Shown here in pieces: positions 8,165 through 25,946 of a stretch of 26,463 bases of DNA. A model generated the notes under the pieces. The model was given only the letters and a program-made list of their open reading frames with translations. It had not been told where the DNA came from and searched no databases. Position 1 is the stretch's first letter, and each line of letters starts with the position of its first letter. The translations under genes were made by a program, and so were the position numbers. This DNA is from a virus. Where the stretch lies: positions 1-26,463 of the IMG/VR virus record IMGVR_UViG_3300036830_000257. The stretch is one strand, 5' to 3'.

Positions 8165-8353
8165 ATGGGCGGCGGGTCACCTCCACCACAAGAGGCTCCA
8201 CCACCTGCTGCAATGCCAGCTATAATCGCTAACGCAGAAACTAAAAGCGGTGCTGGTAACAAAGCGAATGTAAGGGGCTTGTCTCCTAATCAGGGCGTAG
8301 CGTCTAATCCGCTGGGAAATCCTTCCGGTGCAAGCTCAATGTTAGGTGGATAG
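8165..8353 (+). CDS. Pro/Gly-rich small protein ending SSMLGG, 62 aa
   Basis: The ATG at 8165 lies just after the upstream stop, with GGGTGG as ribosome site. The product starts MGGGSPPPQEAPPPAA, is low-complexity throughout, and ends ASSMLGG, close to the SSLLGG end of the previous protein and the SKLLG of the portal C-terminus. It is probably disordered and may be virion-associated. No function is known. Confidence 0.6.
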   Translation: MGGGSPPPQEAPPPAAMPAIIANAETKSGAGNKANVRGLSPNQGVASNPLGNPSGASSMLGG

Positions 8354-8354
8354 C

Positions 8355-10226: not shown

Positions 10227-10435
10227 AAGAAATAAGAACTAAAGAACTCATTTTAGGAAATTTACTTGAGGGGCTTAATCAAGCCAGTGGAGCGGCATCT
10301 CTACTTATTCATCATCAGCAAAATACCTTCTGGATGCGTATGCGAGATGTGCTCGAACTTACGAAGGCAGGTATTGTTTCTTATTCTGTTGATCCATTAC
10401 TGAAGCCAAAGCAGAAGGAACCTGTAAATGAGTAA
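10223..10435 (+). CDS. Small hypothetical protein after the portal, 70 aa
   Basis: This gene overlaps the portal stop (ATGA) and runs into the next gene with an ATGAGTAA overlap. It is helical with an amphipathic segment LILGNLLEGLNQASGAASLLIHHQQ (first 20 residues from about 9) and a Lys-rich tail. Small helical proteins directly downstream of the portal are typical in this phage group, but I recognise no function. Confidence 0.65.
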   Translation: MKEIRTKELILGNLLEGLNQASGAASLLIHHQQNTFWMRMRDVLELTKAGIVSYSVDPLLKPKQKEPVNE

Positions 10436-10706
10436 AACTATTAGAACAATTGATAGCCAGCCAAGAGAAATGTATGAAGCTGAAACCATTGAACGTTTCA
10501 AAGAGGGATTGCTGCTTAGTATTTCATGTTGCAAAGAGATGAATCAGAATGAACCGAATAAAGGCTGGTATCAAATTGGTGAACAGCTTATGGCACTTCG
10601 ATTAAACGGCATTAAGCAATCTCAACGAAAGGCCATTACTCGTGGCGCATTACTTCAGGATGCGGCGATTCTTCAAAGAAGTCTGGATACGAGTGTGACC
10701 GCTTAG
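10428..10706 (+). CDS. Small hypothetical protein, 92 aa
   Basis: AAGGA precedes the ATG, which lies inside the last codons of the upstream gene. The protein is helical (about 15-40 and 55-88), with a Cys pair near residues 34-35 (SCCKE). It ends at a TAG that overlaps by four bases, tail-to-tail, the minus-strand Bbp19-like gene, so it closes this part of the rightward head operon. Function unknown. Confidence 0.65.
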   Translation: MSKTIRTIDSQPREMYEAETIERFKEGLLLSISCCKEMNQNEPNKGWYQIGEQLMALRLNGIKQSQRKAITRGALLQDAAILQRSLDTSVTA

Positions 10707-11128
10707 GATTTATCAGCTACTAAATCATTCCACAATTGTTCGCGTTCCCATCCTTCTTGGAGCATCAAAAAATATTCTTGTGGGGAATGTTTTTTAAATT
10801 CATTTTCCAATGAGCGCCCTATAATCAAAGCGCCGGAATTATAGGCGGTGAGGTGCGTATCAGCAGTATAGGGTGTTCCAAAAACATTAGTGATTGACAG
10901 TAAATCATAAATCCATTCGCGACCTAATTCATCTTGCATTAGCTGCGTGATGACGCGCTTTGCGACAGATGAGCGGCGTTTCATTTCGTCTTCACGTGTT
11001 TTAGCTTTATTGACTTTTTCTATGGGCTGACGAATCCCGGTAATTGGGTCTTTAATTCCAGCTTCAAGGGCTACCGTTTCTGCATCGAATTGGGCTAGTG
11101 GGTCTGGAATAATCGAGTCATAAGCCAT
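10703..11128 (-). CDS. Bbp19-like phage protein, minus strand
   Basis: Residues about 73-130 carry the pattern GREWIYDLLSITNVFGTPY, then THLTAYNSGALIIGRSL, then a helix SPQEYFLMLQEGWEREQ. This matches the Bbp19-like family found in podovirus head modules (Gly-Arg-x-hydrophobic-x-x-x-Leu-Leu..., Ala-Tyr-Asn-x-Gly..., terminal Tyr-x-x-Met/Leu helix). ATG 11128 follows AAGGA; an upstream TTG at 11170 is unlikely. Usual relatives are co-oriented with head genes. Here it is inverted and lies between the portal operon and the inserted cassette. Exact function in virions is not established. Confidence 0.75.
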   Translation of the reverse strand: MAYDSIIPDPLAQFDAETVALEAGIKDPITGIRQPIEKVNKAKTREDEMKRRSSVAKRVITQLMQDELGREWIYDLLSITNVFGTPYTADTHLTAYNSGALIIGRSLENEFKKHSPQEYFLMLQEGWEREQLWNDLVADKS

Positions 11129-11274
11129 CTTTTTTAATCCTTTCAAATATGCGTCGAATAATTTCCCCAATGGAAACTTGATATTTTTTACTGAGTTTCA
11201 CTAGGAATTCATATTGCTGGTGTGGTATTGAAATTGAAAATCTTTTCATGGTTCATTTTTACACCACTTAACTC

Positions 11275-11302
11275 TTGCGTGTCAAGTTTAAATATGTATT
11301 AT
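11275..11302 (+). promoter_or_regulatory. Cassette left-edge promoter with leaderless start
   Basis: TTGCGT (11275-11280), 16 bp, then TATTAT (11297-11302). The expected transcription start coincides with the ATG at 11309, seven bases after the -10 box. No Shine-Dalgarno is present. The upstream in-frame ATG at 11294 is inside the spacer and -10 box and is therefore unlikely to be the start. Confidence 0.6.
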
Positions 11303-11308
11303 GCGCTT

Positions 11309-11983
11309 ATGATAGACATATACTTAGATGGTGCAGACTTAAATGCTATGCGCGAAGGGCGCAAGAATCCATTGGTGAAGGGATTTACTACCAACCCTGC
11401 GCTCATAAGGGCGGCTGGCGTAACTGACTATGAAACCTTCTGCAGAGAGGCATTGGAGATTGTGGATGGTTTGCCAATCTCCTTTGAGGTGTTTTCTGAC
11501 GAATGGGATGACATGGAGCGCCAAGCACGGAAGATTGCATCATGGGGCAGAAATGTGAATGTGAAAATTCCAGTAACCAATACGAGGGGTGAGAGTGCTG
11601 CGCCATTGGTTCGGAAGCTTAGTGATAGCGGGATTATGTGCAATGTGACTGCGGTGTTTACGCAGGAACAGATAGAATATCTCATAAATATGAATGTTAT
11701 TATATCAGTGTTCGCTGGGCGCATTGCTGATACTGGTGTTGACCCCATTTTTCTTGATGGTGCTGGTAGGCAGGTAAATGGAAAACCTAAATTTCTTTGG
11801 GCATCATCGCGTGAGGTTTTGAATATTTATCAAGCCGCGCGGTCTCGATATGACATCATCACCGTTACTCCAGACCTCCTCAAAAAATACGAACAACTGA
11901 AGAATAAAGACCTAACTGAATTTTCATTAGATACGGTTAAAATGTTTTATAACGATGCGCAGAAAGCAGGATACATATTATGA
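11309..11983 (+). CDS. Transaldolase / fructose-6-phosphate aldolase-like enzyme
   Basis: This 224-aa protein matches the short (TalC/FSA-type) transaldolase family: YLDGADL (5-11) with D7, GFTTNPALI (25-33), NVKIPVT (84-90) with Schiff-base K86, CNVTAVFT (111-118) and VFAGRIADTGVDP (134-146). Classical transaldolase makes sedoheptulose 7-phosphate from fructose 6-phosphate and erythrose 4-phosphate; FSA instead cleaves fructose 6-phosphate. In this cassette sedoheptulose 7-phosphate would feed the GmhA-like isomerase and the HldE-like enzyme, so the transaldolase reaction is the better fit. Length is normal. The start at 11309 is supported by a leaderless promoter. The stop overlaps the epimerase ATG. 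Confidence 0.85.
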   Translation: MIDIYLDGADLNAMREGRKNPLVKGFTTNPALIRAAGVTDYETFCREALEIVDGLPISFEVFSDEWDDMERQARKIASWGRNVNVKIPVTNTRGESAAPLVRKLSDSGIMCNVTAVFTQEQIEYLINMNVIISVFAGRIADTGVDPIFLDGAGRQVNGKPKFLWASSREVLNIYQAARSRYDIITVTPDLLKKYEQLKNKDLTEFSLDTVKMFYNDAQKAGYIL

Positions 11984-12882
11984 CTATTAGTTTAATCACT
12001 GGTGGATATGGATTTATAGGATCACATATGGCTAAATTGTTACATGATAAAGGTCATGAAGTTCGTGTGATTGATAATATGTCTACAGGAAAGGTATCAA
12101 ATTTAGATGGTTTTCGAGTAAGCCATTCTCAGATTTCAGATATTAATACTATCGACATTAAACATGGTGTGTTTACAGACATAGATTATCTTTTCCACTT
12201 CGCCGGTATTCCGAGTATTCGCCCTTCATTGGTTAACCCAACACCGTATATGGAAACCAATGCCTTCGGTACTTCTCGTATGCTTGAGGCGGCACGTCAT
12301 GCTAGCGTAAAGAAATTTGTTTATGCCGCATCTTCCGCTTGCTATGGCGAGGCCGATGTTCATCCTACCCCCGAAACTGCTGAGATTAAGTTGCAGCATC
12401 CATATGGCTTGAGCAAGCATTTAGGTGAGGTGGAAACATTGCATTGGGGCGAAGTATTTGGATTGCCGGTGGTAAGTCTAAGGATGTTTGATGTCTTTGG
12501 AAGACGCGCTGATTCGACAGTGGTTGGTATTTTCCAGCGCATGAAGGCTGCTGGGAAGCCGATTACTATTTTTGGCGATGGTAATCAAACACGGGATTTT
12601 GTTGATGTTAAAGATGTGTGTCGTGCTTATCTTATAGCCGCAGAAAGCGATATAAGTGGAGAGGTGTTTAATGTCGGAACTGGCAATCCGCAGACAATTA
12701 ATCATCTTGTCGATTTACTGGGAGGGGAAAAGACGTATCTTCCTAAGCGTGAGAATGAGCCTTATGAGCATTGCGCTGATATTACGAAGATAAAAACAAT
12801 GCTTGGTTGGGAGCCACAGATTTCTTTCGAGGATACAATAAATGACATACTCCAAGATTCTTTCCCTTCCAGCGCTGCTTGA
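11980..12882 (+). CDS. NAD-dependent sugar epimerase/dehydratase (extended SDR)
   Basis: This 300-aa enzyme has the Rossmann NAD(P) motif TGGYGFIG (7-14), an SSAC segment (118-121) and the catalytic YGLSK (Y142, K146) of extended short-chain dehydrogenases. The substrate-binding part is of the UDP-hexose 4-epimerase type. Which sugar nucleotide it acts on cannot be read from sequence. In this context it may be a nucleotide-heptose epimerase like HldD or a 4-epimerase. It starts inside the transaldolase stop (ATGA) and its last 41 bases are overlapped by the next gene. Confidence 0.88.
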   Translation: MTISLITGGYGFIGSHMAKLLHDKGHEVRVIDNMSTGKVSNLDGFRVSHSQISDINTIDIKHGVFTDIDYLFHFAGIPSIRPSLVNPTPYMETNAFGTSRMLEAARHASVKKFVYAASSACYGEADVHPTPETAEIKLQHPYGLSKHLGEVETLHWGEVFGLPVVSLRMFDVFGRRADSTVVGIFQRMKAAGKPITIFGDGNQTRDFVDVKDVCRAYLIAAESDISGEVFNVGTGNPQTINHLVDLLGGEKTYLPKRENEPYEHCADITKIKTMLGWEPQISFEDTINDILQDSFPSSAA

Positions 12883-14314
12883 AAAGCTAGATAGGTCTAA
12901 AAAAGCAATAATGGCTTGCGGATGCTTTGATATAGTGCATCCAGGTCACATTAGGCATTTGACCTATGCTAAGTCAAAGGCGGATATTCTTGTCGTTAGT
13001 GTAACGGCGGATAGGCACATTAAAAAGGGAATATATCGGCCTCACGTTCCTGAGCAGATTCGCGCTGAAAGTTTGGCAGCATTGGAAATGGTGGATTATG
13101 TCATTATTGATGAAAATGCAGATCATTTGATTAATGTAGCCGAGATTAAACCAGACTATTTTGCCAAAGGCTTTGAGTATTCAGACCAACATCATCCAGC
13201 GACGGTTGCTGAAATTAAGTTGGTTGAATCTTATGGCGGTCAAATGATTTTTACACCTGGAGATGTGGTATATAGCTCTACCAAACTTCTTAATACTCAT
13301 CTTCCGAAATTACATATCGAAAAACTTATCAACCTGATGAAACGGTTTGATATTACGTTTGAGGGATTACGCGATGCAATCTCAAATTTTCAAAATTACA
13401 AATGCCATGTCGTCGGAGATACTATCATCGATACCTATACAAGAACCAATCTCATCGGAAGCAATGCCAAGACACCGACCTTTAGCGTTCTCTACGACGG
13501 ACATGAAGATTATATTGGGGGCGCTGCAATCGTTTCCCGGCATCTTAAAGCTGCTGGAGCAGATGTAACTTTTACTACTGTTGTAGGCAATGACCGTTAT
13601 GGTGCAATGGTACGGAAGATGGAAGGCATTAAAGTCAATGCTATCGTGGATGAAAACCGTCCTACGACGCATAAGAATACGATTATAGCGGGGGATTCGC
13701 GGTTGCTTAAGGTTGATACTGTAGATAATGCTCCTATTTCATCTAGGATTGCTGCTGAGATTGCTAATGATATTAAGGAATCCGCCGCTGATTGCACCGT
13801 CTTTAGTGATTTCCGGCATGGAATATTTAGCAAGGCTACGATACATGATTTAGCCATTTCTATTCCTGAGGGTGTGTTTACAGTTGCTGATAGTCAGGTA
13901 GCTTCACGTTGGGGAAATATCACCGAGTTCAAAGGATTCGATCTTATTACTCCGAATGAAAAAGAGGCGCGATTTGCTTTGGCTGACCAAGATTCCAATA
14001 TAGGAAATTTAGCTACGCTAACGCAAGAGACGGCTAGGGCTGAGAATATTATCCTCAAATTAGGGGCGCGTGGCGTATTTTTCTTAGAGAATGGCCTTCC
14101 TTATTCAATTGATAGTTTTGCTAGTCATATTAGGGATGCCGTGGGCGCTGGAGATGCCTTACTTGCCTACGCTACACTTACTATGTTGGCGACCAAATCC
14201 CTTCCTATGGCTTGTATAATAGGCTCTATGGCAGCAGCATGTGAATGTGAATATGATGGCAATATTCCAGTTAGGCCAGAAGATGTGCTGAGAAAGTTGG
14301 CGCAGTATGAGTAA
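12842..14314 (+). CDS. HldE-like bifunctional heptose nucleotidyltransferase and kinase
   Basis: The 490-aa protein joins two enzymes. The N-terminal cytidylyltransferase-type domain has GCFDIVHPGH (27-36) with the HxGH nucleotide site. The C-terminal PfkB-type kinase has GDTIIDTY (192-199), GGAA (226-229), PNEKEA (371-376) and DAVGAGDA (432-439). In E. coli HldE the kinase comes first, so the order is reversed. HldE phosphorylates heptose 7-phosphate at C1 and, after removal of the C7 phosphate, transfers AMP to give ADP-heptose. No GmhB-type phosphatase is visible here. GAGGAT lies upstream of ATG 12842, within the epimerase end. Confidence 0.85.
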   Translation: MTYSKILSLPALLEKLDRSKKAIMACGCFDIVHPGHIRHLTYAKSKADILVVSVTADRHIKKGIYRPHVPEQIRAESLAALEMVDYVIIDENADHLINVAEIKPDYFAKGFEYSDQHHPATVAEIKLVESYGGQMIFTPGDVVYSSTKLLNTHLPKLHIEKLINLMKRFDITFEGLRDAISNFQNYKCHVVGDTIIDTYTRTNLIGSNAKTPTFSVLYDGHEDYIGGAAIVSRHLKAAGADVTFTTVVGNDRYGAMVRKMEGIKVNAIVDENRPTTHKNTIIAGDSRLLKVDTVDNAPISSRIAAEIANDIKESAADCTVFSDFRHGIFSKATIHDLAISIPEGVFTVADSQVASRWGNITEFKGFDLITPNEKEARFALADQDSNIGNLATLTQETARAENIILKLGARGVFFLENGLPYSIDSFASHIRDAVGAGDALLAYATLTMLATKSLPMACIIGSMAAACECEYDGNIPVRPEDVLRKLAQYE

Positions 14315-14996
14315 GCCCATAATTGGCTTTGCAGGTAATGGACATTTAATGGAGCATGCTGCGGCTGCGGCACATATTAAAGGATTCAAGAAAATAAAAA
14401 ATACACCAGGGAAAACTGGCGATCATACCAGAGATTTGCATGAATGCGATATTGTGTATATCTGCCCTGACAGGCCAAGTAACACATCCCCACAGCAAAT
14501 GGTAGATTTAGTATTGCCATATTTGAAGGATGATGCAGTTCTGGTAATTCATTGTCAGGTTGAGCCTGGGTTTACTAGAAAAATTGAATGGCCTTCAGTT
14601 TATTATCATGTTGAAACGCTAAAAGTGAACGATAAGGCTATGGAGCGGGCACTGAATCCTGAGAGAATTATTTTGGGGTCTAATGCAATGGATGGTTCTT
14701 ATATAGATTTTAGGTTATCGCAATATTTACTTTCCTTCAATTGTCCAATAATTCCTATGTCCTACGAATCCGCTGAACTAGCTAAAATAGCCATTAATTA
14801 TTATCTGGCAAAGCAGATTGAGGCATCGAATACACTATCTAAAATAGCCGAAAAAATAGGCGCTAATTGGGATGATATTATACCGGCTCTACAAACTGAC
14901 AAGCGTATAGGTCAATATGCTTATCTCAAGCCAGGAGAGTTTGGGCCGCATTTGCAACGTGATTTGGATGTTATAGAGAAGATAAAACTTCAGTAG
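14307..14996 (+). CDS. Short UDP-glucose/GDP-mannose dehydrogenase-like protein without catalytic Cys
   Basis: This 229-aa protein resembles the first two-thirds of nucleotide-sugar dehydrogenases: an N-terminal Rossmann start (IGFAGNGHLM), a VEPGFT segment (85-90), NPERIILGS (117-125), and the central helix ESAELAKIAINYYLAKQI (154-171) with K160 and N164. The usual GFGFGGxCFPKD catalytic loop is replaced by PGEFGPHLQRD (209-219), with His at the Cys position, and the C-terminal substrate domain is missing (usual length over 400). A four-electron oxidation is therefore unlikely. It may do a simpler redox step or bind a nucleotide sugar. It is the last gene of the rightward operon. Confidence 0.75.
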   Translation: MSKPIIGFAGNGHLMEHAAAAAHIKGFKKIKNTPGKTGDHTRDLHECDIVYICPDRPSNTSPQQMVDLVLPYLKDDAVLVIHCQVEPGFTRKIEWPSVYYHVETLKVNDKAMERALNPERIILGSNAMDGSYIDFRLSQYLLSFNCPIIPMSYESAELAKIAINYYLAKQIEASNTLSKIAEKIGANWDDIIPALQTDKRIGQYAYLKPGEFGPHLQRDLDVIEKIKLQ

Positions 14997-15002
14997 TCGG
15001 CA

Positions 15003-15713
15003 TTATTTTTTTCTTATCATCAATAGACCATTGCCAATCGGAAGAATGACTTTTTCGTAGCCTTCTAGCGTTTTAACGTAATCCAGCATACGACGCACCC
15101 CAGCACCTTTCTCGGATGTTGATACTTGGTTCAGCGTGTCGCCTTGAAAAAATACATCATCTACGAGAATCATGCCGTTTTTAGCAAGTCTTGGTAGAGA
15201 TAATTCAAGTAGTTCTTTATAAGATTCTTTAGCGCAGTCTATGAGGATTAAATCATAGAGTAATATATCGCCTTGCAAATATTTAATGGCATCAAATTGC
15301 AAACATCTAATTTGTCTTTGGAATTTATTGTTTTTTATATTCTCTGTGGCAATTCCATGGAATTCCTTTCCTGTCTCTATAGTGTAAACCATAGCTCCCG
15401 CATCAGCTATATACATAGCTGATGCGCCAATATAAGTTCCAAGTTCTAAAACTTTTTTATACCCATGCGAGCGAATCAAAAATTGATAGAAACGCAGAGT
15501 ATTTAAATCTGATCCCATCACAGCGTACGTCATGCCATCTTTGGTTTTAATGTCCAGTTTTAGCGGCTCATACATGGATTCGAGCAATCGTTCCATATCG
15601 CCATAGAAATCCTTACCTTTATACATCTTTGAAAAATAAGGCTGTGATGGCAAAAGCCTATCCTTGTTTTGGATAGAGGACATTTCGTCGTCATTCCATA
15701 CTGCATTTTTCAT
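15003..15713 (-). CDS. Class I SAM O-methyltransferase (family 3, COMT-like)
   Basis: This 236-aa protein has SAM motif I VLELGTYIG (88-96), the acidic DLILIDCAKESY (154-165) and a VDDVFFQGD segment (184-192), the metal-coordinating region of catechol/caffeoyl-CoA-type O-methyltransferases. It would methylate a hydroxyl on a sugar or sugar intermediate. Its ATG overlaps the E1-beta stop as TAATG. It converges with the rightward operon, 6 bp away, and no terminator is obvious between them. Confidence 0.88.
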   Translation of the reverse strand: MKNAVWNDDEMSSIQNKDRLLPSQPYFSKMYKGKDFYGDMERLLESMYEPLKLDIKTKDGMTYAVMGSDLNTLRFYQFLIRSHGYKKVLELGTYIGASAMYIADAGAMVYTIETGKEFHGIATENIKNNKFQRQIRCLQFDAIKYLQGDILLYDLILIDCAKESYKELLELSLPRLAKNGMILVDDVFFQGDTLNQVSTSEKGAGVRRMLDYVKTLEGYEKVILPIGNGLLMIRKK

Positions 15714-16666
15714 TAGAATGGGCCTTTAAAGTTAGGGTTGGGGATATCAATAATCGGTGGTGTATCTGGATATAGCCCCTCAAGATAGCCGCGAGAGGAT
15801 GGAATTGGGTGGTCGGGAATGCCTATTCTTTGTACGCTAAATTGCAATCCAGCCTCAACACACCTTGCGATAATTTCCGCTCCAATTCCATAAGTTTTAT
15901 ATCCAGTATCCACAAAGCGTAGATGTCCGGTTTTTTTAACTGAGGAAATTATATCCTCAATATTTAATGGACGTAAAACACGAAGATCAAAAACATCTTC
16001 TGGGCCATCAAGTAATTCCGGAATTACCGAATACGAAGTAGCAACCACCGTAGCCAAGTCTCCACTTTGTAATTTCTTCGGCTTCGTAATATCACTTTTA
16101 TAATATCCCTCTGGCACTTCTCCTTTTACATAATGCGTCCAGCGATGCTCGATGATGACAACGGGATTGTCATCCTCAATAGCAGAAATTAACATCCCTT
16201 TATAATCTTCTGGAAACGTAGGCATCAGCACCTTGAGTCCAGGGATATAGGCAAACATCGCTTCAAGGCTTTGGGAATGACATGGCCCCTGCCCCCATCC
16301 ACGCCCAACGATCATGCGAATTACTAGCGGGCATTTATGCTGTCCATTGCTGATATAATGCATCTTGGCAGCATTATTGATGATTTGCTCCATAGCCAGA
16401 AGGGCAAATTCTACACGGTGAAATTGTATAACTGGACGTTTGCCCGACATGGCAAGACCGATAGCCACTCCAACCATCGCATTTTCTGAAACAGGTGTTT
16501 CGATAAGTCTATCCCCATATATGGGTTGCAATCCTGCTGTCGTTCCATAAAATGCTCCTTTATCGTCTATGCCCTGCCCCATAAGCAATACGTTCTTATC
16601 GCGCTCTCCCATGATGGCGAGAGCCTCGTTAATGGCTTGGGCTGAGGTGAGTTCACGCATAGACAT
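15713..16666 (-). CDS. 2-oxoacid dehydrogenase-like E1 component, beta subunit
   Basis: With the ATG at 16666 the product is 317 aa, near normal for E1-beta. It has the TPP-activating glutamate in ETPVSEN (E61), the conserved GPCHSQSLEA (127-136; H130) and PGLKVLMPT segments, and a C-terminal transketolase domain (RFVDTGYKTYGIGAEI). E1-alpha/beta pairs decarboxylate 2-oxoacids with thiamine diphosphate and normally pass the acyl group to E2. No lipoyl acyltransferase or E3 is encoded here. A role in making or extending a sugar by a two-carbon unit is possible but not shown. Its start overlaps the alpha stop. Confidence 0.88.
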   Translation of the reverse strand: MSMRELTSAQAINEALAIMGERDKNVLLMGQGIDDKGAFYGTTAGLQPIYGDRLIETPVSENAMVGVAIGLAMSGKRPVIQFHRVEFALLAMEQIINNAAKMHYISNGQHKCPLVIRMIVGRGWGQGPCHSQSLEAMFAYIPGLKVLMPTFPEDYKGMLISAIEDDNPVVIIEHRWTHYVKGEVPEGYYKSDITKPKKLQSGDLATVVATSYSVIPELLDGPEDVFDLRVLRPLNIEDIISSVKKTGHLRFVDTGYKTYGIGAEIIARCVEAGLQFSVQRIGIPDHPIPSSRGYLEGLYPDTPPIIDIPNPNFKGPF

Positions 16667-17549
16667 ATTTACTCGCCATTTCTGGTGTTGGTAAAGGTGC
16701 GGATTCAGCGGCATCGAAGGCGGCGGTGATTTTATCATTAATCTGCATTTGCATTTTTGCTATTCGCAAATCAGGAACACCACTAGCATCGACAGCTATT
16801 TTCAATGGATCGTTTTTACAATCAAATTCTCTGTCTATTCCACAATGAATACGTGAACGTTCAGTTAGCACATCAATGAAATATGGCTTTCCCTTCCTTA
16901 CATCATCAATAATTTGCTTAAAAGCATTGGCCAAAATAAATACATCTTTCGCAAGCATTCCCCAGTGCGAAATATTATGTGCCTTAGCAACATCTTCATA
17001 GCTTCTATCAGGCTGTCTTTTCTTAATCGGTGTATCCACAGAATACTGGTTATTCTCGCATACAAAAATAATTGGCAATTGCATAAGAGATGCAAAGTTA
17101 AGTGCCTCGTGGAAAACACCCTCTTCAACTGCCGCATCACCAAAAAAACAAACAACTACATTCCCGTTACCATCAATTTTATTAGCTAGAGCAGCACCAA
17201 CGGCTAGGGGGATTGCGGAAGCAACGATAGGACAACTAAAGAAATTTACAGAGGTATCCAATGCGTGCATACTGCCACCTCTACCTCCGTTGCATCCATC
17301 AGCCTTTCCATAAATTTCCAGCGTAAACTTCTCTATATCACCGCCTTTGGAAATAAAATGGCTATGATTGCGATGCGTACTAAAAACAGAATCTTGTTTT
17401 GTCAAATGATGACAAGCGCCCACTGCTATTGCTTCCTGATTGCACGATAAATGAACCGGACATCTAATCAATTGTCGTGGATAGCGCTCAATAATTTCCT
17501 CATCGAACCTCCGGCAGAGAAGCATTTTCTCTATGATAGAATGTTCCAT
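16653..17549 (-). CDS. 2-oxoacid dehydrogenase-like E1 component, alpha subunit
   Basis: This 298-aa protein (somewhat shorter than most E1-alpha) has HRNHSHFISKGGD (59-71), the GGRGGSMH segment (88-95), and the thiamine diphosphate-binding motif GDAAVEEGVFHEALNFASL, running from G137-D138 to N166-N167. It pairs with the adjacent E1-beta. The gene order methyltransferase, E1-alpha, E1-beta, methyltransferase inside a glycan cassette, without E2/E3, argues against central metabolism. Regulatory phosphorylation-loop features of mitochondrial E1 are not expected in this short version. The start overlaps the upstream methyltransferase end by 19 bases. Confidence 0.9.
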   Translation of the reverse strand: MEHSIIEKMLLCRRFDEEIIERYPRQLIRCPVHLSCNQEAIAVGACHHLTKQDSVFSTHRNHSHFISKGGDIEKFTLEIYGKADGCNGGRGGSMHALDTSVNFFSCPIVASAIPLAVGAALANKIDGNGNVVVCFFGDAAVEEGVFHEALNFASLMQLPIIFVCENNQYSVDTPIKKRQPDRSYEDVAKAHNISHWGMLAKDVFILANAFKQIIDDVRKGKPYFIDVLTERSRIHCGIDREFDCKNDPLKIAVDASGVPDLRIAKMQMQINDKITAAFDAAESAPLPTPEMASKYVYA

Positions 17550-18193
17550 GAATATGCCCCCGTATATCCAGCTTCTTCAAAAACCTTTAACCATCCCTCA
17601 GGATAATCATGAAATTCTGGCGTTAATGCCCAGCTTTCAAACAACATCTTTTCTTCAGGTGTGTAGTAACTATCAACCACTATATAGCTATTCCCCTTGG
17701 ATACCCGTTCAATTTCCTTCAATGCCATAACACACTTATCACGCGGAAGATTATGAAGAGTGTTTATCGAAATTACTAAATCAAAAAATTTATCCATAAA
17801 CGGTATATGCTTTGCCGAACCTAAATACATTCTATGGGCAATTTCAACGGGGCAATTTTCTATAGCATATTTCGATATATCCAAACCGCGTACATCAAGA
17901 AATTTCTTTTCCTTCATTAAATCCCAGACAAGAAAGCCTTTGCCGCAGCCTACATCTAGTACACGCGAACCTTTTTTTAATTTGAAAAATTCAATAATAT
18001 CCCTAGCGACTGGCCTCCAGCGCGAATCATAGTAATAACCTCCATAGCCATATTTTCTATCGCCATCGAAATAGTCATATCCAAACTGCTTGGCAATATT
18101 GATAATATTAGGGTCTTTCGCCTTAGCCCGCGCTTTAATATCGCGCTTGGATTTTGGAAGAGACGAGAGAAGATTTATTTCGCGACTCACCAT
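17531..18193 (-). CDS. SAM-dependent methyltransferase (Methyltransf_11-like)
   Basis: This 220-aa protein has SAM motif I VLDVGCGKGF (78-87), the acidic end of strand 2 at RGLDISK, and FDLVISINTLHNL as motif II/III. An N-terminal lead (KQFGYDYFDGDRKYGYGGYYY, first 20 residues from 35) with many Tyr is unusual and likely caps the substrate site. It would methylate a sugar hydroxyl or a carboxyl/amine of the product. The ATG lies within the isomerase stop region (overlap of 7 bases). Target unknown. Confidence 0.88.
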   Translation of the reverse strand: MVSREINLLSSLPKSKRDIKARAKAKDPNIINIAKQFGYDYFDGDRKYGYGGYYYDSRWRPVARDIIEFFKLKKGSRVLDVGCGKGFLVWDLMKEKKFLDVRGLDISKYAIENCPVEIAHRMYLGSAKHIPFMDKFFDLVISINTLHNLPRDKCVMALKEIERVSKGNSYIVVDSYYTPEEKMLFESWALTPEFHDYPEGWLKVFEEAGYTGAYSWNILS

Positions 18194-18762
18194 TTTGTGG
18201 CATTTTTCTGAAGAATCGGATTACTCACTAAGCTATGCCACACCAACGATTGAAATGCTTCGGATAATGGCGTAATCAAAGGTTCTTCAATAATCGGTAT
18301 GCAAATAGCTATATCTGCATACCGAGCCGTATAGCCGCTTGCCTTACCTACTACGCCATATATTTTAGCGCCAACAGCTTTAGCCAATTTTATTGCCCGA
18401 ATAAGATTAACACTAACTTTTCTCTTTTCATCGCCACCACCTACCGAGAATATCAGCAACGCATCATTTTTATTGAACTTGCTTACTTTGAGCCATCCAC
18501 TAAATACTGTATCCAATCCTTCATCATTTGCCCGTGCGCTAAATTCTGACACGTTATCTGTAGGCGCATACGCCTCTATGCCACAAAGCTTCCTGAAGTC
18601 ATTTACAGCATGACTAGCATTACCGGCGCTACCTCCCATGCCAAGGATGAAAAGACGGCCTTCGAGTTTGGATAGGGATTCGGCTAATTGTTCGATTTTC
18701 TGTGTATCGAGATTGTCCATGACTGATTTTGCGGTTTGAGCAAAGTGGCGGCTATGATGCAT
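18187..18762 (-). CDS. gmhA: SIS-domain sugar-phosphate isomerase (GmhA-like)
   Basis: This 191-aa protein has the SIS-domain signature GMGGSAGNASH (41-51), then TDNVSEFSARANDEG (68-82), the SVGGG phosphate loop (106-110), and EAFQSLVWH (168-176), the helix with the likely catalytic His. GmhA converts sedoheptulose 7-phosphate to heptose 7-phosphate. The pairing with transaldolase and the HldE-like enzyme supports that, though other SIS ketose isomerases look alike. The start overlaps the HNH stop; upstream only a weak GAGAT site is seen. Confidence 0.82.
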   Translation of the reverse strand: MHHSRHFAQTAKSVMDNLDTQKIEQLAESLSKLEGRLFILGMGGSAGNASHAVNDFRKLCGIEAYAPTDNVSEFSARANDEGLDTVFSGWLKVSKFNKNDALLIFSVGGGDEKRKVSVNLIRAIKLAKAVGAKIYGVVGKASGYTARYADIAICIPIIEEPLITPLSEAFQSLVWHSLVSNPILQKNATKW

Positions 18763-19237
18763 AAGTAATCTCGTTTAGTTTAGCAAATTTTCCATGCAAT
18801 TTTTGAGACATATTATTATAAGCTATAGCGGCTTCAATTTCTAAGAAATACTCTCCAATGTAATGATGTTTACAATCAGACACAATTTGCGCTATCCATT
18901 TATTTTTTCTTGTGCTGAAATGCACCCCTTTATATTTACTGGTGCCGCCTTTACTTTTGACATTCATGGCATTTTGTGATTTAGTCGCTAACCGAAGATT
19001 GCAACGTCTATTGTCTAAAGTATTACCATTGATGTGGTCTGTTTCTATACCTTTTTCAGTATTTAAAATAAGACGGTGCATATAAGTTTTACGACAATTC
19101 TTATATCTCTTTTCTCTAGGTTCATTTTTAACCGCATATCCAATCTTATTAAAAAACCAATTATACTGGGAAAGCCCCCCATAATCAGCATCATCTACGA
19201 TAGCAAACTTGCCTTGGCTTAAGAGTATTTCACGCAT
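18752..19237 (-). CDS. HNH endonuclease with AP2 DNA-binding domain
   Basis: This 161-aa protein has an N-terminal part, an HNH motif (MHRLIL with H54, TDHINGNTLDNRRCN with D67-H68 and N71-N80), and a C-terminal AP2-like domain (KYKGVHFSTRKNKW, then a helix with AAIAYN). This is a homing endonuclease type common in phages. It sits between the aminotransferase and the isomerase within one leftward operon, overlapping both by a few bases. It is likely a selfish insertion that did not break either gene. Confidence 0.9.
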   Translation of the reverse strand: MREILLSQGKFAIVDDADYGGLSQYNWFFNKIGYAVKNEPREKRYKNCRKTYMHRLILNTEKGIETDHINGNTLDNRRCNLRLATKSQNAMNVKSKGGTSKYKGVHFSTRKNKWIAQIVSDCKHHYIGEYFLEIEAAIAYNNMSQKLHGKFAKLNEITYAS

Positions 19238-20333
19238 AAAACTTTTTCACACAATCAATGATATATTGAAGTTCATTTTCTTCAAGATGTTCGTGACAAG
19301 GAAGGCTTAATTTGTTTTCTGCCTGCCAGTCGGTAATCAGAAAGTCTCCATCTTTACACTTATGTTGAAAGGCGCGGTTGCGATAACATGGCATTGGGTA
19401 ATGTACAAGCCCCTCCACACCACATTCTTTAAGATATGCCTGTAACTCATCGCGTCGTTCATAAAAGTTTTCGTATAGGGTGAATGTTACTTTACGATCT
19501 TTGCCAAACCGCCTTGATAATTTTACTTGTGGAATTTTGCTTAATTGCTCATCCATAAAAGCAGCATTCTTGATTCGATTATCAGTTATCATGTCGATTT
19601 GCTCTAACACATATTGTGCCACAACCGCCTGTACGGTATCGAGGCGAGAATTGCATCCTGCGATGGAATTGGTATTGCGGGCAATAAGTCCATGATTGCG
19701 ATAAAGGCGTAGCCATTTGGCATAGTCATCATTATCAGTAACGATCATGCCGCCATCTCCCCAGACGCTTAAATTCTTGAGCGGATGAAGTGAGAAGGCG
19801 CTTATATCTCCGAATGTACCGGCTTTTTTGCCATCAATCTCCGACATTATTCCTTGGGCGGAATCTTCTATTATCTTTAATTTATATTTGATCGCTAATT
19901 CTCTTATTGCGTTCATATCAGGCATATTGCCGCCCCAAATGACTGGCATTATCGCCTTTGTACGCCTAGTTATAGCTTTCTTTATTTTTGTTGCGTCCAT
20001 ACAGAAGTTATCAGTTACGTCTACGAAGACGGGAATAGCACCTACTTCACATATAGCGCCAGCGGTGGCGATGAATGTGTTGGCTGCTGTGATAATCTCA
20101 TCGCCAGATTTAATACCAGCCGCAAGCAAACTAAGCCGAAGTGCATCCGTACCATTACCTACACCGATAGCGTGTTTTATGCCTATTTTAGCTGCGAAGT
20201 TATCCTCGAATTCTTTGACTTCTCGGCCAAGTGTGAAATCGCCACGTGCTATTACGCTATCTAGGCGATGAAAGATTTCTGTACGGACTTCGGGAGGGAA
20301 TTTACGCTGAAGATATGACCAACCTATTTTCAT
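19230..20333 (-). CDS. DegT/DnrJ/EryC1-type sugar aminotransferase
   Basis: With the ATG at 20333 (ATGA overlap with the upstream gene) the product is 367 aa, normal for the PLP-dependent family. It has GNGTDAL (59-65), the IIEDSAQG segment (154-161) with the PLP-binding Asp, and SLHPLKNL with Schiff-base Lys at about 186. These enzymes transfer an amino group from glutamate to a keto sugar nucleotide. Thus the product of this cassette probably passes through a keto intermediate. A longer reading from 20375 is possible but is not favoured by the overlap. Confidence 0.9.
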   Translation of the reverse strand: MKIGWSYLQRKFPPEVRTEIFHRLDSVIARGDFTLGREVKEFEDNFAAKIGIKHAIGVGNGTDALRLSLLAAGIKSGDEIITAANTFIATAGAICEVGAIPVFVDVTDNFCMDATKIKKAITRRTKAIMPVIWGGNMPDMNAIRELAIKYKLKIIEDSAQGIMSEIDGKKAGTFGDISAFSLHPLKNLSVWGDGGMIVTDNDDYAKWLRLYRNHGLIARNTNSIAGCNSRLDTVQAVVAQYVLEQIDMITDNRIKNAAFMDEQLSKIPQVKLSRRFGKDRKVTFTLYENFYERRDELQAYLKECGVEGLVHYPMPCYRNRAFQHKCKDGDFLITDWQAENKLSLPCHEHLEENELQYIIDCVKKFYA

Positions 20334-21733
20334 AAATCGTGTTGCCTTTTCTTTGGTAATGTTTTGCCGATCCATGGGTCGCTTGCCAATACAACCCCTT
20401 TCAGCATTTCCTGCTCTTGTAATATTCTTGCTTTTGCCATTGGCGTTATTTGCGGCCTCAAAGAACGATTCAATTTATGCACCTCAGCAACGAAAAAGAA
20501 TTTCGCGCAATCGCGCATTTTAATTGCATCCCATATTGCCTGACCGTAATTGCTGAGATGTATATAAGATTGTTGCGGAGGCCGTGAAGATTGATTAGTC
20601 ATACCGCAGATGAATAAGTCATCGCATTCCTGTGGGATATAGAATGGTACTCCAGCGGGAATGAGCAAATCCAATTCGCTGTCAATGCTTATATAAAATC
20701 TATCAGGTTGCGCTGCCACAGTCTTTGCGCTTAGATATACAGGCTGTAAATGCGGAGCAGCCATATGAAGCGTATCAGGAGCTTCCCAGAACAAACGATG
20801 TTTCCCTGGCATGAAATTAGGCTCCGGACGTGTATTGACGATGCCAAAGAAATCGGAGATATTCACAGAGTTGAGTGTAATTGCGGCTAAATCTTCTGCG
20901 CAAACGCTAATTATATCATTTTTTGTATAATTTTTCAGCCATTTTTTTATTACGCCTTCATCGGTATCAATACAGCCCATAAGGATGTTATCGTGAGTTT
21001 CGGAGAGCCTTGTAATTTCCGCAAAAAAATTATTGCAATAAACAAAATCAGGCATCGCATGATGATAGGCAGCATTATGACGCTTAGCATAAGCAAGTTG
21101 TAAACTAACACCAGCACCTATGAGCCAATAGGTTTCCGAACCTTTGCTGAGTTCTTCGGTAATATATTCATAGACGAAGTGTGTGCCGAGTTTTTCTAAT
21201 GTTTTTGTTGAATTATTCGCTCTAATATTCGATTCATCTATTTCTGTCGTAATAATATGAATAATGACGTTAAATTTTTCACATAAAGATTTTATATTAC
21301 CTTCGGTAAGCCATGTTGGGAAAAGCGTTTCCAGCATCTTATGTGTCCATGCCCCCCATACCATAAGACCAATGATGATGCGTGGCTTGAGATGTTTATC
21401 GTAAATTACTGCTGGGGGGAGTTGCTTAATCTTCTCATCTAGCCATTCAGCCATAGCAATGACGTGCTTATCCTTGGGTGATGGTTCACGGCCTTCGAGC
21501 GCATTTATTTCTTTTGTGAGTGCGAGGAATGATTTGTAATCTCCTGATTCACGTAGCACCCACATCTTGAGGGATTCATTGAGCGAGCAAAGGCGCTGCG
21601 GATATGGATTGAAAAAATATCCGTCTACTGGTTCGCGTGGCAAACCCACATATTTTGCGGTTAAAGTGGTGATTTTATCGAAGAGATTATAATCAGCAAA
21701 TGTCTTAATGACATCTTTCTGGTCTTGGCTCAC
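20330..21733 (-). CDS. Large unknown protein, possible glycosyltransferase
   Basis: The GTG at 21733 gives 467 aa. It follows a strong GGGGAGAAAATAAC site and overlaps the upstream stop as GTGA. Residues about 115-150 (KPRIIIGLMVWGAWTHKMLE) resemble the opening strand-helix of a GT-A-like fold, and the rest alternates strands and helices. TEIDES and CIDTDEG are candidate metal or sugar-nucleotide acidic motifs. Proteins of this general appearance occur in surface-glycan clusters, but I could not assign a family. Context (sugar enzymes around, otherwise no glycosyltransferase in the cassette) makes this the best candidate to use the activated sugar. Confidence 0.6.
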   Translation of the reverse strand: MSQDQKDVIKTFADYNLFDKITTLTAKYVGLPREPVDGYFFNPYPQRLCSLNESLKMWVLRESGDYKSFLALTKEINALEGREPSPKDKHVIAMAEWLDEKIKQLPPAVIYDKHLKPRIIIGLMVWGAWTHKMLETLFPTWLTEGNIKSLCEKFNVIIHIITTEIDESNIRANNSTKTLEKLGTHFVYEYITEELSKGSETYWLIGAGVSLQLAYAKRHNAAYHHAMPDFVYCNNFFAEITRLSETHDNILMGCIDTDEGVIKKWLKNYTKNDIISVCAEDLAAITLNSVNISDFFGIVNTRPEPNFMPGKHRLFWEAPDTLHMAAPHLQPVYLSAKTVAAQPDRFYISIDSELDLLIPAGVPFYIPQECDDLFICGMTNQSSRPPQQSYIHLSNYGQAIWDAIKMRDCAKFFFVAEVHKLNRSLRPQITPMAKARILQEQEMLKGVVLASDPWIGKTLPKKRQHDL

Positions 21734-21927
21734 GTTATTTTCTCCCCTAGATTTTTGAGCCAAATGTCGGCGTTATCACGCTTTACATAGGTTCTTTTGC
21801 CTAATTTTGTTATCTGTAATTTTTTGTTTCTTACCTCTTCATAGAACTTACTTCTTCCTATGTGATATTCGGCCAAAAAGTCCTCAACGGTGAGAAGTCT
21901 TTTTTCGGGGGGTTTGTCCATCTGCAT
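21730..21927 (-). CDS. AlpA/excisionase-like helix-turn-helix protein
   Basis: With the start at 21927 the product is 65 aa. It has the typical small MerR/AlpA-type pattern: LLTVEDFLAEYHIGRSKFYE (about 11-30), a short wing KKLQITKLGKRTYVKRDNADI, then a C-terminal helix. These proteins bind DNA as transcription regulators or excisionases. No integrase is in the window, so a regulatory role, possibly of this operon, seems more likely. It is the first gene of the leftward cassette operon. An ATG at 21921 is also possible. Confidence 0.7.
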   Translation of the reverse strand: MQMDKPPEKRLLTVEDFLAEYHIGRSKFYEEVRNKKLQITKLGKRTYVKRDNADIWLKNLGEKIT

Positions 21928-21945
21928 ATGGGTATGTACTTTGGC

Positions 21946-21974
21946 ATAATATATTACGCTTGTCAAATTGTGCA
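21946..21974 (-). promoter_or_regulatory. Cassette right-edge leftward promoter
   Basis: On the minus strand TGCACA (21974-21969), a 17-bp spacer and TATTAT (21951-21946) form a plausible promoter, starting near 21939, about 12 bases before the HTH gene ATG. It shares the TATTATGC box with the left-edge promoter. TTGACA (21966-21961) is present but too close to the -10 box to be its -35. Confidence 0.45.
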
Positions 21975-22012
21975 TTTTTAACTTGTACTTGAATAAGTTA
22001 TATGGGATTATA

Positions 22013-22043: not shown

Positions 22044-22913
22044 ATGCCTGAAACAGAAATTCCAGTAACTCCGGCTGCGGCATCTTCCGCTCCTGTCATT
22101 GACACCACTGTTTCTGCCTCTGCTCTTGCCACTGAATCTGCTCCCTCTTCAACTCCCGCAGTTTCCACGGAGGCTGCGGTTCCTTTAGTTGAAACTTCTG
22201 CTGTTGAATCCGCAAAACCGGAATCTTCATTACTCGCCGCTGAGTCTCCTATTGAAACTAAGACGGAAGTAAAGCCGGAGGTTAAAGATGAAGCCAAGCC
22301 AGAAGAAAAGAAGCCAGAGGTCAAAGCGGATGAAAAACCTGCGGAACCGAAAACTGTCGAAATTGAAGTACCAAAATTCGAGGCATTCAAACTTCCAGAA
22401 GGCTTTACAGCTGATGAAAAAGTTATGGGTGAGTTCACGGGATTGCTTGGTAAACTTGAAGTTTCTAAAGGCGACCATAAAGCGACTCAGGAAGTCGGTC
22501 AGCAGTTAGTGGATTTATTCACCGCGAGACTGACGGAAGCCACAAAATTTCAGAATGAATCGAATATCGCTTTTTGGGAAAAGACAAAGCAGAATAGGGT
22601 TGATGAATTAAAGAAAGATCCGTATTTCGGTGCTGGTGGCGATACTACCAAACAGACGCAGTTGCAGATGGAGATGGCTGGATTCCTTCAACGCAATATT
22701 CCTAAAGCGGAATTGCAAGAATTTAGAAAATTTGCTGTTGAGAATGGCATTGATAATGCACTGCCAGTCGCTCGACTTATCAATACCCTGAAACAGAAAA
22801 TCGACAAATATGAAAATGAGACGGGAAAGATGTTGCCCGGAACGAAACCTGCGCCGTCAAAGCCTGTGGTTGGTAAGGGAATTTTGACTACTCTGTACGG
22901 TAAACAGGCATGA
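22044..22913 (+). CDS. Capsid scaffolding (prohead core) protein
   Basis: The 289-aa protein has a low-complexity Ala/Ser/Pro then Glu/Lys/Pro N-terminus (about 1-110, with repeated KPEVK-type units), a segment FKLPEGFTADEKVMGEF (115-131), and a helical C-terminal part ending ILTTLYGKQA. A disordered acidic start followed by a helical domain with a C-terminal capsid-binding motif, directly upstream of the major capsid gene, is typical of scaffold proteins in this phage group. The scaffold assembles the prohead and is then removed. No protease is apparent nearby. Confidence 0.82.
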   Translation: MPETEIPVTPAAASSAPVIDTTVSASALATESAPSSTPAVSTEAAVPLVETSAVESAKPESSLLAAESPIETKTEVKPEVKDEAKPEEKKPEVKADEKPAEPKTVEIEVPKFEAFKLPEGFTADEKVMGEFTGLLGKLEVSKGDHKATQEVGQQLVDLFTARLTEATKFQNESNIAFWEKTKQNRVDELKKDPYFGAGGDTTKQTQLQMEMAGFLQRNIPKAELQEFRKFAVENGIDNALPVARLINTLKQKIDKYENETGKMLPGTKPAPSKPVVGKGILTTLYGKQA

Positions 22914-22952: not shown

Positions 22953-24014
22953 ATGGCATTAAATACTTTTGGCACTAACGTCCAGCCTAATCTAGTTGAT
23001 TATGCACAATTGACCGATCCCACCGGAAAAATAGCTACTGTAGCTTGGCTTCTGGCGCAGGCTAATCCTATCTTAAAGGATATGATCTGGAAGGAAGCTA
23101 ATGGTCCGACCTATCATGAAGTCACGCTCAATACGGCGTTACCGCAGGCTACATGGCGTCAGAACAATCAGGGCGTTCCTGCTTCAAAGGGTATGAATGC
23201 ACGTGTAAAGTTTGGTATTGGCATGATTACCGATTATAGCCAGCTTGACCGCGCTCAGGCTCGTCTTGGTGGAAATATCGAAGCTCAGCGCTGGACGATT
23301 GACCAGATGCATATTGAGGGTATTTCGCAGCAGATTGCTTCGGCTATCTTCTATTCCAACGAAGCCACCACTCCGGCGCAGTTTACGGGATTTGCTCCTT
23401 ATTATAACTCGCTTGAAACCACAACGGCTGCAACGGCGAAGAATGTCATCAATGCAGGTGGTGCGGCAAGTTCCAATACCTCGATTTTCCGAGTCGATTG
23501 GGGTGACCATACGTGCTTCGGTATTTTTCCGAAAGGTACGCAGGCCGGTCTTGTTTATGAAGATAAAGGCGAATTCCGTCAGCTTTATGATCAGTTCGGC
23601 AACGGCTTTGAAGGCTATACCTCATATTTCGAGTGGATGCTTGGCCTAGCTATCATGAACTGGACGTATGTTGGCCGTATTTGCAATATTGATACGACTA
23701 CGGCTGGTCTGGCTGGTACGTCGCCGCCTGATTTGAATTCGCTGATGATTCAGATGGCATCAAAAATCACGACTTCTCCGCGTCGCATGTTCGGCATCAC
23801 TGAAGTAGATGCTCCTGGCGACCCGATGCCTGGAACGATGCCGACATGGTATTGTAACCGTACTGGCCGTGCCGGTTTGGATTTACAGAGTATTCGCGAT
23901 AAGAACGTGCTTATTTCGCTCAAAGAATATGCCGGTGAGCCGGTTGAATTCTGGCGCGAAGCTCCTGTACGCTCGAATGACTCTATTCTTAACACTGAAA
24001 CCGCAATAACCTAA
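22953..24014 (+). CDS. Major capsid protein (HK97-fold, GP7-like)
   Basis: This 353-aa protein begins with the conserved family opening, including LVDYAQLTDPTGKIATVAWL (about 14-33), ANPILKDMIW and TWRQNNQGVPASKG (about 67-80), known from epsilon15/BPP-1-type major capsid proteins. It would form the icosahedral shell with the adjacent cement protein. A strong AAGGAG site precedes the ATG. It lies directly after the scaffold gene, as expected. Confidence 0.92.
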   Translation: MALNTFGTNVQPNLVDYAQLTDPTGKIATVAWLLAQANPILKDMIWKEANGPTYHEVTLNTALPQATWRQNNQGVPASKGMNARVKFGIGMITDYSQLDRAQARLGGNIEAQRWTIDQMHIEGISQQIASAIFYSNEATTPAQFTGFAPYYNSLETTTAATAKNVINAGGAASSNTSIFRVDWGDHTCFGIFPKGTQAGLVYEDKGEFRQLYDQFGNGFEGYTSYFEWMLGLAIMNWTYVGRICNIDTTTAGLAGTSPPDLNSLMIQMASKITTSPRRMFGITEVDAPGDPMPGTMPTWYCNRTGRAGLDLQSIRDKNVLISLKEYAGEPVEFWREAPVRSNDSILNTETAIT

Positions 24015-25373: not shown

Positions 25374-25946
25374 GTGAATACTGCTGAAAATATTATTAAT
25401 ATTCCTATTACAAGACTTTGCACTAAGTGTAAGGTAGAGAAATCTTTTGGGAATTTTTACAACAGAAACAAACAAAGATATGACGGCGAAATTAATACAC
25501 AATGCAAAGAATGCGTAAAAGAATTCAATCGAATCAATAAGGCCAAACGCCTTGCTGAAAATCCTGAATATTGGAAAGCAAAATGGTTGGTTTCCAAACA
25601 AAAGTCTATTGTGAAAAAGGTTGGACATTATAAAAATGCTGAAAAAGATTATCAGTACAGAAGGAAATATGGCATTACCCTAGAGGATGCTCGTAAAATG
25701 TTGATTGCTCAAATGGGCATGTGTGCCAATAGGGCTTGTGGGAAAGAATTGTCCGTAGATAATTCCTCAATAAAAGTAATTGATGGCGTTAAAAGAGATG
25801 AGGTTGGTTGCGTTGACCACAATCATGAAACCGGAAAAGTTAGAGCTATTCTTTGCGGTAGATGTAATATGGCCGTTGGAGTTATTGAAAATAAAAATAT
25901 AATGTTTGGTTTAACCGAATACTTACAAAAACACGAAGAGGAATAA
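25374..25946 (+). CDS. Endonuclease VII-like HNH nuclease
   Basis: This 190-aa protein has an N-terminal zinc ribbon (CTKC at 16-19, CKEC at 44-47) and a C-terminal His-Me finger domain with Cys at 117 and 122, DHNHETGKVR (148-157) carrying the catalytic His, and CGRCN (161-165). This is the pattern of recombination endonuclease VII, which resolves branched DNA before packaging, and of many phage homing endonucleases. GTG 25374 follows GAGGA with good spacing. It lies among structural genes and is probably a mobile or accessory nuclease. Confidence 0.88.
   Translation: MNTAENIINIPITRLCTKCKVEKSFGNFYNRNKQRYDGEINTQCKECVKEFNRINKAKRLAENPEYWKAKWLVSKQKSIVKKVGHYKNAEKDYQYRRKYGITLEDARKMLIAQMGMCANRACGKELSVDNSSIKVIDGVKRDEVGCVDHNHETGKVRAILCGRCNMAVGVIENKNIMFGLTEYLQKHEEE

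Follow-up and report, generated by a model that had tools for sequence, protein, structure and literature searches.

A convergent nucleotide-sugar gene cassette in the head module of a phage, with relatives in unrelated phages and in Alphaproteobacteria

Gene content of the cassette

We identified a cassette of predicted sugar-nucleotide genes in the 26,463-base IMG/VR virus record IMGVR_UViG_3300036830_000257 (the window, i.e. the whole stretch analysed), which covers only 26 kb of the phage genome. Open reading frame (ORF) calls and family searches showed that the cassette splits the head module at 11309–21975, between portal-side genes and a scaffold-like gene (Table 1). Intact ORFs with overlapping or nearly abutting ends fill this interval in two convergent blocks. 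The plus-strand block (11309–14996) encodes a transaldolase (TAL), an SDR epimerase/dehydratase (SDR1), a nucleotidyltransferase–kinase fusion (ATK) and a short UDP-glucose dehydrogenase (UGDH)-like protein. The minus-strand block (21975–15003) encodes, in this order, an 81-amino-acid (aa) excisionase/helix-turn-helix (HTH)-like protein, the candidate glycosyltransferase GTx, a DegT aminotransferase, an HNH endonuclease, a GmhA-like isomerase, the methyltransferase MT2, E1-alpha, E1-beta and the O-methyltransferase OMT. Clear enzyme family matches were obtained for ten ORFs, and GTx is the eleventh; a first-pass annotation that had described eleven enzyme-type genes between portal-side genes and scaffold, in two operons facing each other, was thus a fair account of the locus.

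The gene list of that annotation was likewise right in substance but missed the HNH gene and the 81-aa ORF. Its proposal that each operon has its own edge promoter did not hold, as promoter-like sites are not above chance (31 versus 34.5 ± 6.1 in shuffled sequences) and none is listed on the plus strand from 10500 to the transaldolase gene; terminators are also at chance level. On the related phage contig L022, the DegT and GmhA genes overlap by 11 bp without an HNH gene, which places the HNH gene of the window exactly at that junction. The excisionase-like ORF is possibly a regulator or a remnant.

Table 1. Cassette genes and head-module genes of the window.
Feature	Coordinates	Strand	Evidence or remark
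Terminase	4657–6144		Head module, family searches
Head-tail connector/portal	8346–10226		Head module, family searches
Flanking phrog_528 gene	10703–11170	−	Left edge of probable inversion
TAL, transaldolase-like (TIGR02134 type)	11309–11983	+	Pfam TAL_FSA 8.5e-34; TIGR02134 1.3e-79
SDR1, SDR epimerase/dehydratase	11980–12882	+	Pfam Epimerase 1.1e-51
ATK, nucleotidyltransferase–PfkB kinase fusion	12842–14314	+	HldE-like, domains in reverse order
Short UGDH-like protein, 229 aa	14307–14996	+	Pfam UDPG_MGDP_dh 3.4e-12; alignments
OMT, O-methyltransferase	15003–15713	−	Pfam Methyltransf_3 1.6e-16
E1-beta type thiamine diphosphate (ThDP) enzyme subunit	15713–16738	−	Pfam Transket_pyr 1.5e-31; NF006667 2.2e-68
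E1-alpha type ThDP enzyme subunit	16653–17549	−	Pfam E1_dh 1.4e-48
MT2, S-adenosylmethionine (SAM) methyltransferase	17531–18193	−	Family match; also in bacterial clusters
GmhA-like SIS isomerase	18187–18762	−	SIS_2 1.1e-06; TIGR00441 1.5e-12
HNH (HNH_3 + AP2) homing-type endonuclease	18752–19237	−	Inserted at DegT/GmhA junction
DegT/DnrJ/EryC1/StrS sugar aminotransferase	19230–20375	−	Pfam 1.9e-99
GTx, candidate GT-A type glycosyltransferase, 477 aa	20330–21763	−	Bacterial glycan-locus relatives; weak fold matches
81-aa excisionase/HTH-like (xis-like) ORF	21730–21975	−	phrog_66 1.1e-04
Scaffold/protease-like gene	22044–22913	+	phrog_458 2.7e-09; right boundary; empty site in L003
GP7-type capsid protein	22953–24014		Head module, family searches

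Motifs and family limits of the enzymes

TAL keeps the active-site residues Asp7, Glu60 and Lys86 in an active-site alignment and scores 267 bits against TIGR02134 (cut-off 282). Its ORF can open from GTG 11222, and the start is probably ATG 11309 rather than 11275 as first annotated. SDR1 keeps the YxxxK motif. ATK keeps the HPGH and GAGD motifs, falls below the HldE equivalog cut-offs (NF008454, 142.9 bits, cut-off 521; TIGR02198, 136.9, cut-off 345; TIGR02199, 97.9, cut-off 181.5) and has its domains reversed relative to the kinase-then-nucleotidyltransferase order of HldE. The GmhA-like protein scores 47.8 bits against the GmhA equivalog TIGR00441 (cut-off 209) and has Asp in place of the Glu of the GmhA motif. 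DegT has 3uwc as its best solved relative (302 bits), with which its lysine is aligned.

The protein first annotated as dehydrogenase-like is indeed a UGDH homologue, albeit a short one without the catalytic cysteine: the Cys of the GGxCxPKD motif is His in the phages and Asn in members of the bacterial cluster described below. The phage proteins have no C-terminal UDP domain and fall outside the definition of UDP-glucose dehydrogenases. Because phage and bacterial proteins alike lack the Cys, a four-electron oxidation is unlikely and the enzyme may instead catalyse a two-electron oxidation or an epimerisation. We rejected a truncated pseudogene, as the short form is conserved in three phages.

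The E1-alpha subunit keeps the GDx...NN ThDP motif, and the pair has the characteristics of sugar-cluster carboligases (alphaKADH2), namely E1 alpha/beta homology, the ThDP motif, a context of sugar genes and no E2 or E3 in the cassette. Assignment to pyruvate dehydrogenase (PDH) E1 of central metabolism was rejected given this context, the lack of E2/E3 in the cassette and scores under the NCBIfam cut-offs.

GTx has no Pfam family match, only chance matches to the PDB by sequence and no match in a scan of viral sequences. It carries the motif VWGxxY...GNxPxL...PD, which is common to its relatives, and these occur in bacterial glycan loci. A first structure model was poor, while a second has a confident core (residues 74–258, predicted local distance difference test score mostly 70–90) whose top Foldseek matches are mostly GT-A glycosyltransferases, all of them weak (best E 0.0055, TM score about 0.17). 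GTx is therefore likely, on the strength of a model and a motif, to be a glycosyltransferase. Genes of its family are present in 7 of 385 Alphaproteobacteria genomes, five of which also carry ATK, and the two genes lie approximately 12–17 kb apart where both are on one contig. GTx evolves faster than the other cassette enzymes (34% identity; nonsynonymous differences per site (pN) of 0.47), as might be expected if acceptors differ. Four bacterial GTx-family proteins (L117–L120) have C-terminal matches, some weak, to a Fasciclin domain.

Related copies in unrelated phages

Cassette genes are present in three unrelated phage backbones at identities of mostly 61–78%, the exceptions being TAL in L085 (56%), SDR1 in L002 (56%) and the fast-evolving GTx. 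Contig IMGVR_UViG_3300045283_000068 (L002 and L019) differs from the window in terminase and portal type (phrog_38, phrog_1216). It encodes TAL, an extra SDR2, SDR1, ATK and UGDH-like genes convergent with E1-beta, E1-alpha and MT2, adjoining the terminase gene, and an O-methyltransferase just before the capsid genes. L022 shares the terminase (63%) and portal (53%) types of the window; TAL, SDR1, ATK and UGDH are contiguous between these two genes, and GTx, methyltransferases, a PhyH-like gene, DegT and GmhA follow after the portal. L085, with a third portal type, has TAL–GmhA–MT2–SDR1 beside packaging genes. OMT is 72% identical in L019 and L022, and MT2 is 64% identical in L085. A comparison of relatives had been proposed with the first-pass annotation as a check that the cassette occurs as a unit. 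TAL–SDR1–ATK–UGDH indeed has the same order on one strand in three phages (contiguous in the window and L022, with the extra SDR2 in L002) and the convergent layout occurs in two, whereas L022 has its genes in two blocks around the portal.

The phage proteins form clades of their own, with Shimodaira-Hasegawa-like approximate likelihood ratio test (SH-aLRT) support of 99 for SDR1 and support of 95/100 for ATK, 85 for TAL (97 without L085) and 88 for GmhA. Because synonymous sites are saturated while pN is 0.14–0.28 for those ten enzymes that have counterparts in other phages, the cassette is more than a chance assemblage, and the sequences indicate strong purifying selection on its enzymes. 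Since related copies occur in at least three unrelated lineages, whole pathways for glycans rather than individual genes appear to be exchanged among phages. The claim that this pathway is larger than is usual for a phage and is carried as a set is supported by its presence in unrelated phages and its collinearity with a bacterial cluster.

Among 50,697 phage records, GTx and the GmhA-like protein had no match and ATK matches never reached 80% coverage; cyanophage HldE-like matches cover the nucleotidyltransferase only. TAL matches in these records were mainly from cyanophages (approximately 33% identity), along with two Staphylococcus phage records (approximately 45%, no annotation at the match). 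None of the cultured phages searched carries the full gene set, a search of the available literature for phage transaldolase with gmhA/hldE returned no report of such a cassette, and plasmid searches gave generic UGDH or nothing. PhyH-like dioxygenase genes were observed in L022 (18465–19274), between cassette genes, and, from a reading of the sequence, at the TAL operon of the Pelagibacteraceae contig L026; they possibly provide an extra hydroxylation of the sugar.

Counterpart in Alphaproteobacteria

ATK relatives were detected at E <= 1e-60 in 32 of the 385 sampled Alphaproteobacteria, approximately 27 of which encode a full-length or near-full ATK with about 49–58% identity. The bacterial cluster, which is widespread, has the order GmhA–GmhB–TAL–SDR2–SDR1–ATK–Gfo/Idh–UGDH-like. 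The 20 loci fetched around ATK, several of which end at a contig edge, contain TAL (n = 16), Gfo/Idh (n = 18), UGDH-like (n = 18), GmhA-like (n = 13), GmhB (n = 10), MT2 (n = 14) and a complete E1 pair (n = 4). MT2 is 48–59% identical in most of the loci that carry it, and DegT is near some clusters. Neighbouring genes encode a NusG-type antiterminator, glycosyltransferase family 2 (GT2) enzymes and methyltransferases, a neighbourhood that resembles those of surface polysaccharide genes. L026 has the same order plus two GTx-like genes, and in Delongbacteria and Bdellovibrionaceae TAL occurs together with a GmhA-like gene. The cluster (L063–L082) is apparently uncharacterised, and its gene logic parallels lincosamide octose synthesis. 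Its GmhB phosphatase and Gfo/Idh oxidoreductase were found neither in the cassette of the window nor in those ORFs of L002 and L022 that were read, so that calling the cassette self-contained, as the first-pass annotation did, was too strong.

Insertion site and flanking genes

The cassette is absent from relatives with 52–57% identical portals (16 related portal loci fetched). The insertion point, a further proposed check, is evident from the cassette-free relative L003, in which 53 bp separate the end of the phrog_528-like gene (8264) from the start of the scaffold gene (8317); this gap compares with approximately 10.9 kb in the window. In all of the mapped relatives without a cassette, the phrog_528 gene has the orientation of the portal gene (+), whereas it is reversed (−) in the window. 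A single inversion of approximately 10.7–22.0 kb would account for this flip, and undoing it would put DegT and GmhA downstream of the portal and on its strand, as in L022. A search for inverted repeats at the cassette edges found nothing convincing.

A sulfotransferase-like gene (7233–7859, +; PF13469, 22 bits, under the curated cut-off of 27) lies just upstream of the portal gene and has a 63% identical copy at the same position in the cassette-free relative L012; its product might act on the cassette glycan or on a different one. Two more genes that look like HNH genes on a reading of the sequence lie close to the terminase and capsid genes (3959–4660 and 25374–25946), and L003 and L012 carry relatives of the second between scaffold and capsid gene. 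The head module thus seems rich in homing-type genes.

Predicted pathway, product and acceptor

We interpret the cassette, with a probability of about 0.72, as a phage-adapted copy of the alphaproteobacterial pathway that would make a nucleoside diphosphate (NDP)-activated sugar. The identity of the pathway is well supported, and for the exact sugar and its acceptor we give the likeliest readings. The sequences themselves show the gene set, the motifs, the purifying selection, the bacterial counterpart and a phage-specific lineage; the product, the succession of steps and the acceptor are inferred from them. Since the gene set matches the lincosamide octose route and the E1 pair matches enzymes that add two-carbon branches, the likeliest product is an amino octose or heptose that is NDP-activated, methylated and probably branched. 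Judging by homology, TAL would build a ketose phosphate, either sedoheptulose 7-phosphate or, like LmbR, which starts from ribose 5-phosphate, octulose 8-phosphate, and the GmhA-like isomerase would convert it to an aldose phosphate. The PfkB half of ATK would then phosphorylate C1, a GmhB-type phosphatase not encoded in the cassette would remove the terminal phosphate, and the nucleotidyltransferase half of ATK would yield the NDP-sugar, with ADP as the expected nucleotide if ATK acts like HldE. Stereochemistry would be set and a ketone created by SDR together with the UGDH-like protein that lacks the Cys, probably assisted by a Gfo/Idh enzyme of the host. DegT would add an amino group, the E1 pair a two-carbon branch from pyruvate, and the two methyltransferases would finish the sugar for transfer by GTx.

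Several points weigh against this interpretation. The activities are predicted from sequence, from which C7 and C8 sugars are not distinguishable, and a modified heptose is possible. With GmhB and Gfo/Idh missing from the cassette, the host must supply them or those steps differ. The kinase/nucleotidyltransferase is HldE-like where the lincosamide route uses a guanylyltransferase, and the likeness to the lincosamide route is one of enzyme functions. The E1-type pair could be a transketolase-like or other ThDP enzyme, GTx was called a transferase from weak fold and motif evidence (E 0.0055 or worse), and a position in the head module is no proof of virion decoration.

As acceptor, a virion protein or a glycan on the host surface is most likely. 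We lean slightly, at somewhat less than even odds, towards the virion, because each of the three phage lineages has these genes within or next to its head module. The same location speaks against a modification of host lipopolysaccharide (LPS) or capsule for superinfection exclusion or receptor change, as does a cassette without visible O-antigen polymerase, flippase or membrane transferase. Such a surface role, compatible with either sugar, nevertheless retains perhaps one chance in three: the bacterial copies lie in loci whose antiterminator, GT2 and methyltransferase genes are typical of surface polysaccharide, GTx relatives occur near bacterial clusters, and modification of O-antigen by phages is known (e.g. 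PMC8787464).

A plain heptose is an unlikely but still substantial alternative, in which TAL and the E1 pair would raise the supply of sedoheptulose 7-phosphate and the remaining enzymes would make a modified ADP-heptose. The GmhA-like and HldE-like homologies and the presence of a dedicated transaldolase, which would supply this precursor, fit such a route; the matches of the E1 pair, however, are to the PDH E1 alpha/beta class and not to transketolase, the GmhA-like protein has the Asp substitution, and the UGDH-like, Gfo/Idh and DegT genes beside TAL in bacterial clusters fit an octose route. The first-pass annotation had proposed one modified, activated heptose. A single nucleotide-sugar pathway is borne out, whereas the heptose is not established and an octose route fits at least as well.

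Viral glycosyltransferases are able to hypermodify DNA (work cited in PMC12619734), but phage DNA is a very improbable acceptor, with no base-modification enzyme seen in the cassette (in a record of only 26 kb) and bacterial counterparts in apparent surface-glycan loci. Least credible is accidental host DNA, whether a recent non-functional acquisition or an assembly chimera: the absence from the 16 related portal loci and the inverted flank gene would fit, but all frames are intact under strong purifying selection, the same cassette is on independent phage contigs from other metagenomes and the phage copies form their own clades. Host contamination was rejected on the phage context and these clades.

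Reports of sugar genes in phages usually concern one or two auxiliary genes. The near-complete rare-sugar pathway described here is conserved, kept by selection and common to unrelated phages, and stands out in being so complete, in having a bacterial counterpart and in its spread. It points to an alphaproteobacterial sugar cluster that parallels lincosamide octose logic and makes the question of phage-glycan chemistry directly testable. In the most far-reaching version, unrelated phages would share a dedicated, phage-evolved pathway whose product, a lincosamide-like NDP-sugar, is a methylated amino octose carrying a two-carbon branch, and would decorate their own virions with it; as a whole this is improbable. 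If true, the virion glycan would come from a sugar class of which we know no example in viruses.

Comparison with known systems

Of the known systems, the octose route of lincomycin and celesticetin biosynthesis (LmbR/N/P/K/O/M/L/Z/S; PMC12945683, PMC4351081), in which LmbR makes octulose phosphate from ribose 5-phosphate (PMC5854111), shares with the phage cassette a jointly encoded transaldolase, aldose-ketose isomerase, kinase, nucleotidyltransferase, epimerase, UGDH-like dehydrogenase and aminotransferase. Its phosphatase and oxidoreductase functions are present in the bacterial clusters, not in the phage; it uses GDP activation, whereas the phage has kinase and nucleotidyltransferase as one HldE-like fusion and adds the E1 pair. 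In sugar clusters, E1 alpha/beta pairs act as carboligases and attach C2 branches to ketosugars (PMC12247030; AviB1/AviB2, PMC4753412), and the phage pair is likewise split, without E2 or E3 and among sugar-nucleotide genes, although the cited enzymes are from antibiotic clusters, not phages, and the phage activity is predicted. The ADP-heptose pathway (GmhA–HldE–GmhB–HldD) has counterparts in the GmhA-like isomerase, the HldE-like domains and the SDR epimerase. The phage matches are, however, all under equivalog thresholds, the ATK domain order is reversed, there is no GmhB, and transaldolase, aminotransferase, UGDH-like protein and E1 pair are additional.

Phage-borne sugar metabolism is likewise represented by cyanophage talC, HldE, gmhA-type auxiliary genes and O-antigen nucleotide-sugar genes. 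Many IMG/VR contigs carry a separate GmhA–GmhB–TAL module, including aquatic viral contigs with nucleotidyltransferase (NT)–GmhA–GmhB–TAL (L089–L114). These share adjacent TAL and GmhA-like families with the cassette, but in place of ATK they have a separate nucleotidyltransferase, GmhB and, as seen in L099, a GHMP kinase; their TAL is of a mostly separate clade and, in the mapped loci, nothing matched the E1 pair, DegT or UGDH-like proteins. In L099 (module at 8418–12727), which also encodes PhoH, the family-1 glycosyltransferase and GHMP kinase beside TAL make the transaldolase look like a glycan gene rather than a pentose-phosphate gene. The cassette likewise suggests that transaldolases encoded on viral contigs serve, in at least some cases, in glycan synthesis instead of the pentose phosphate pathway.

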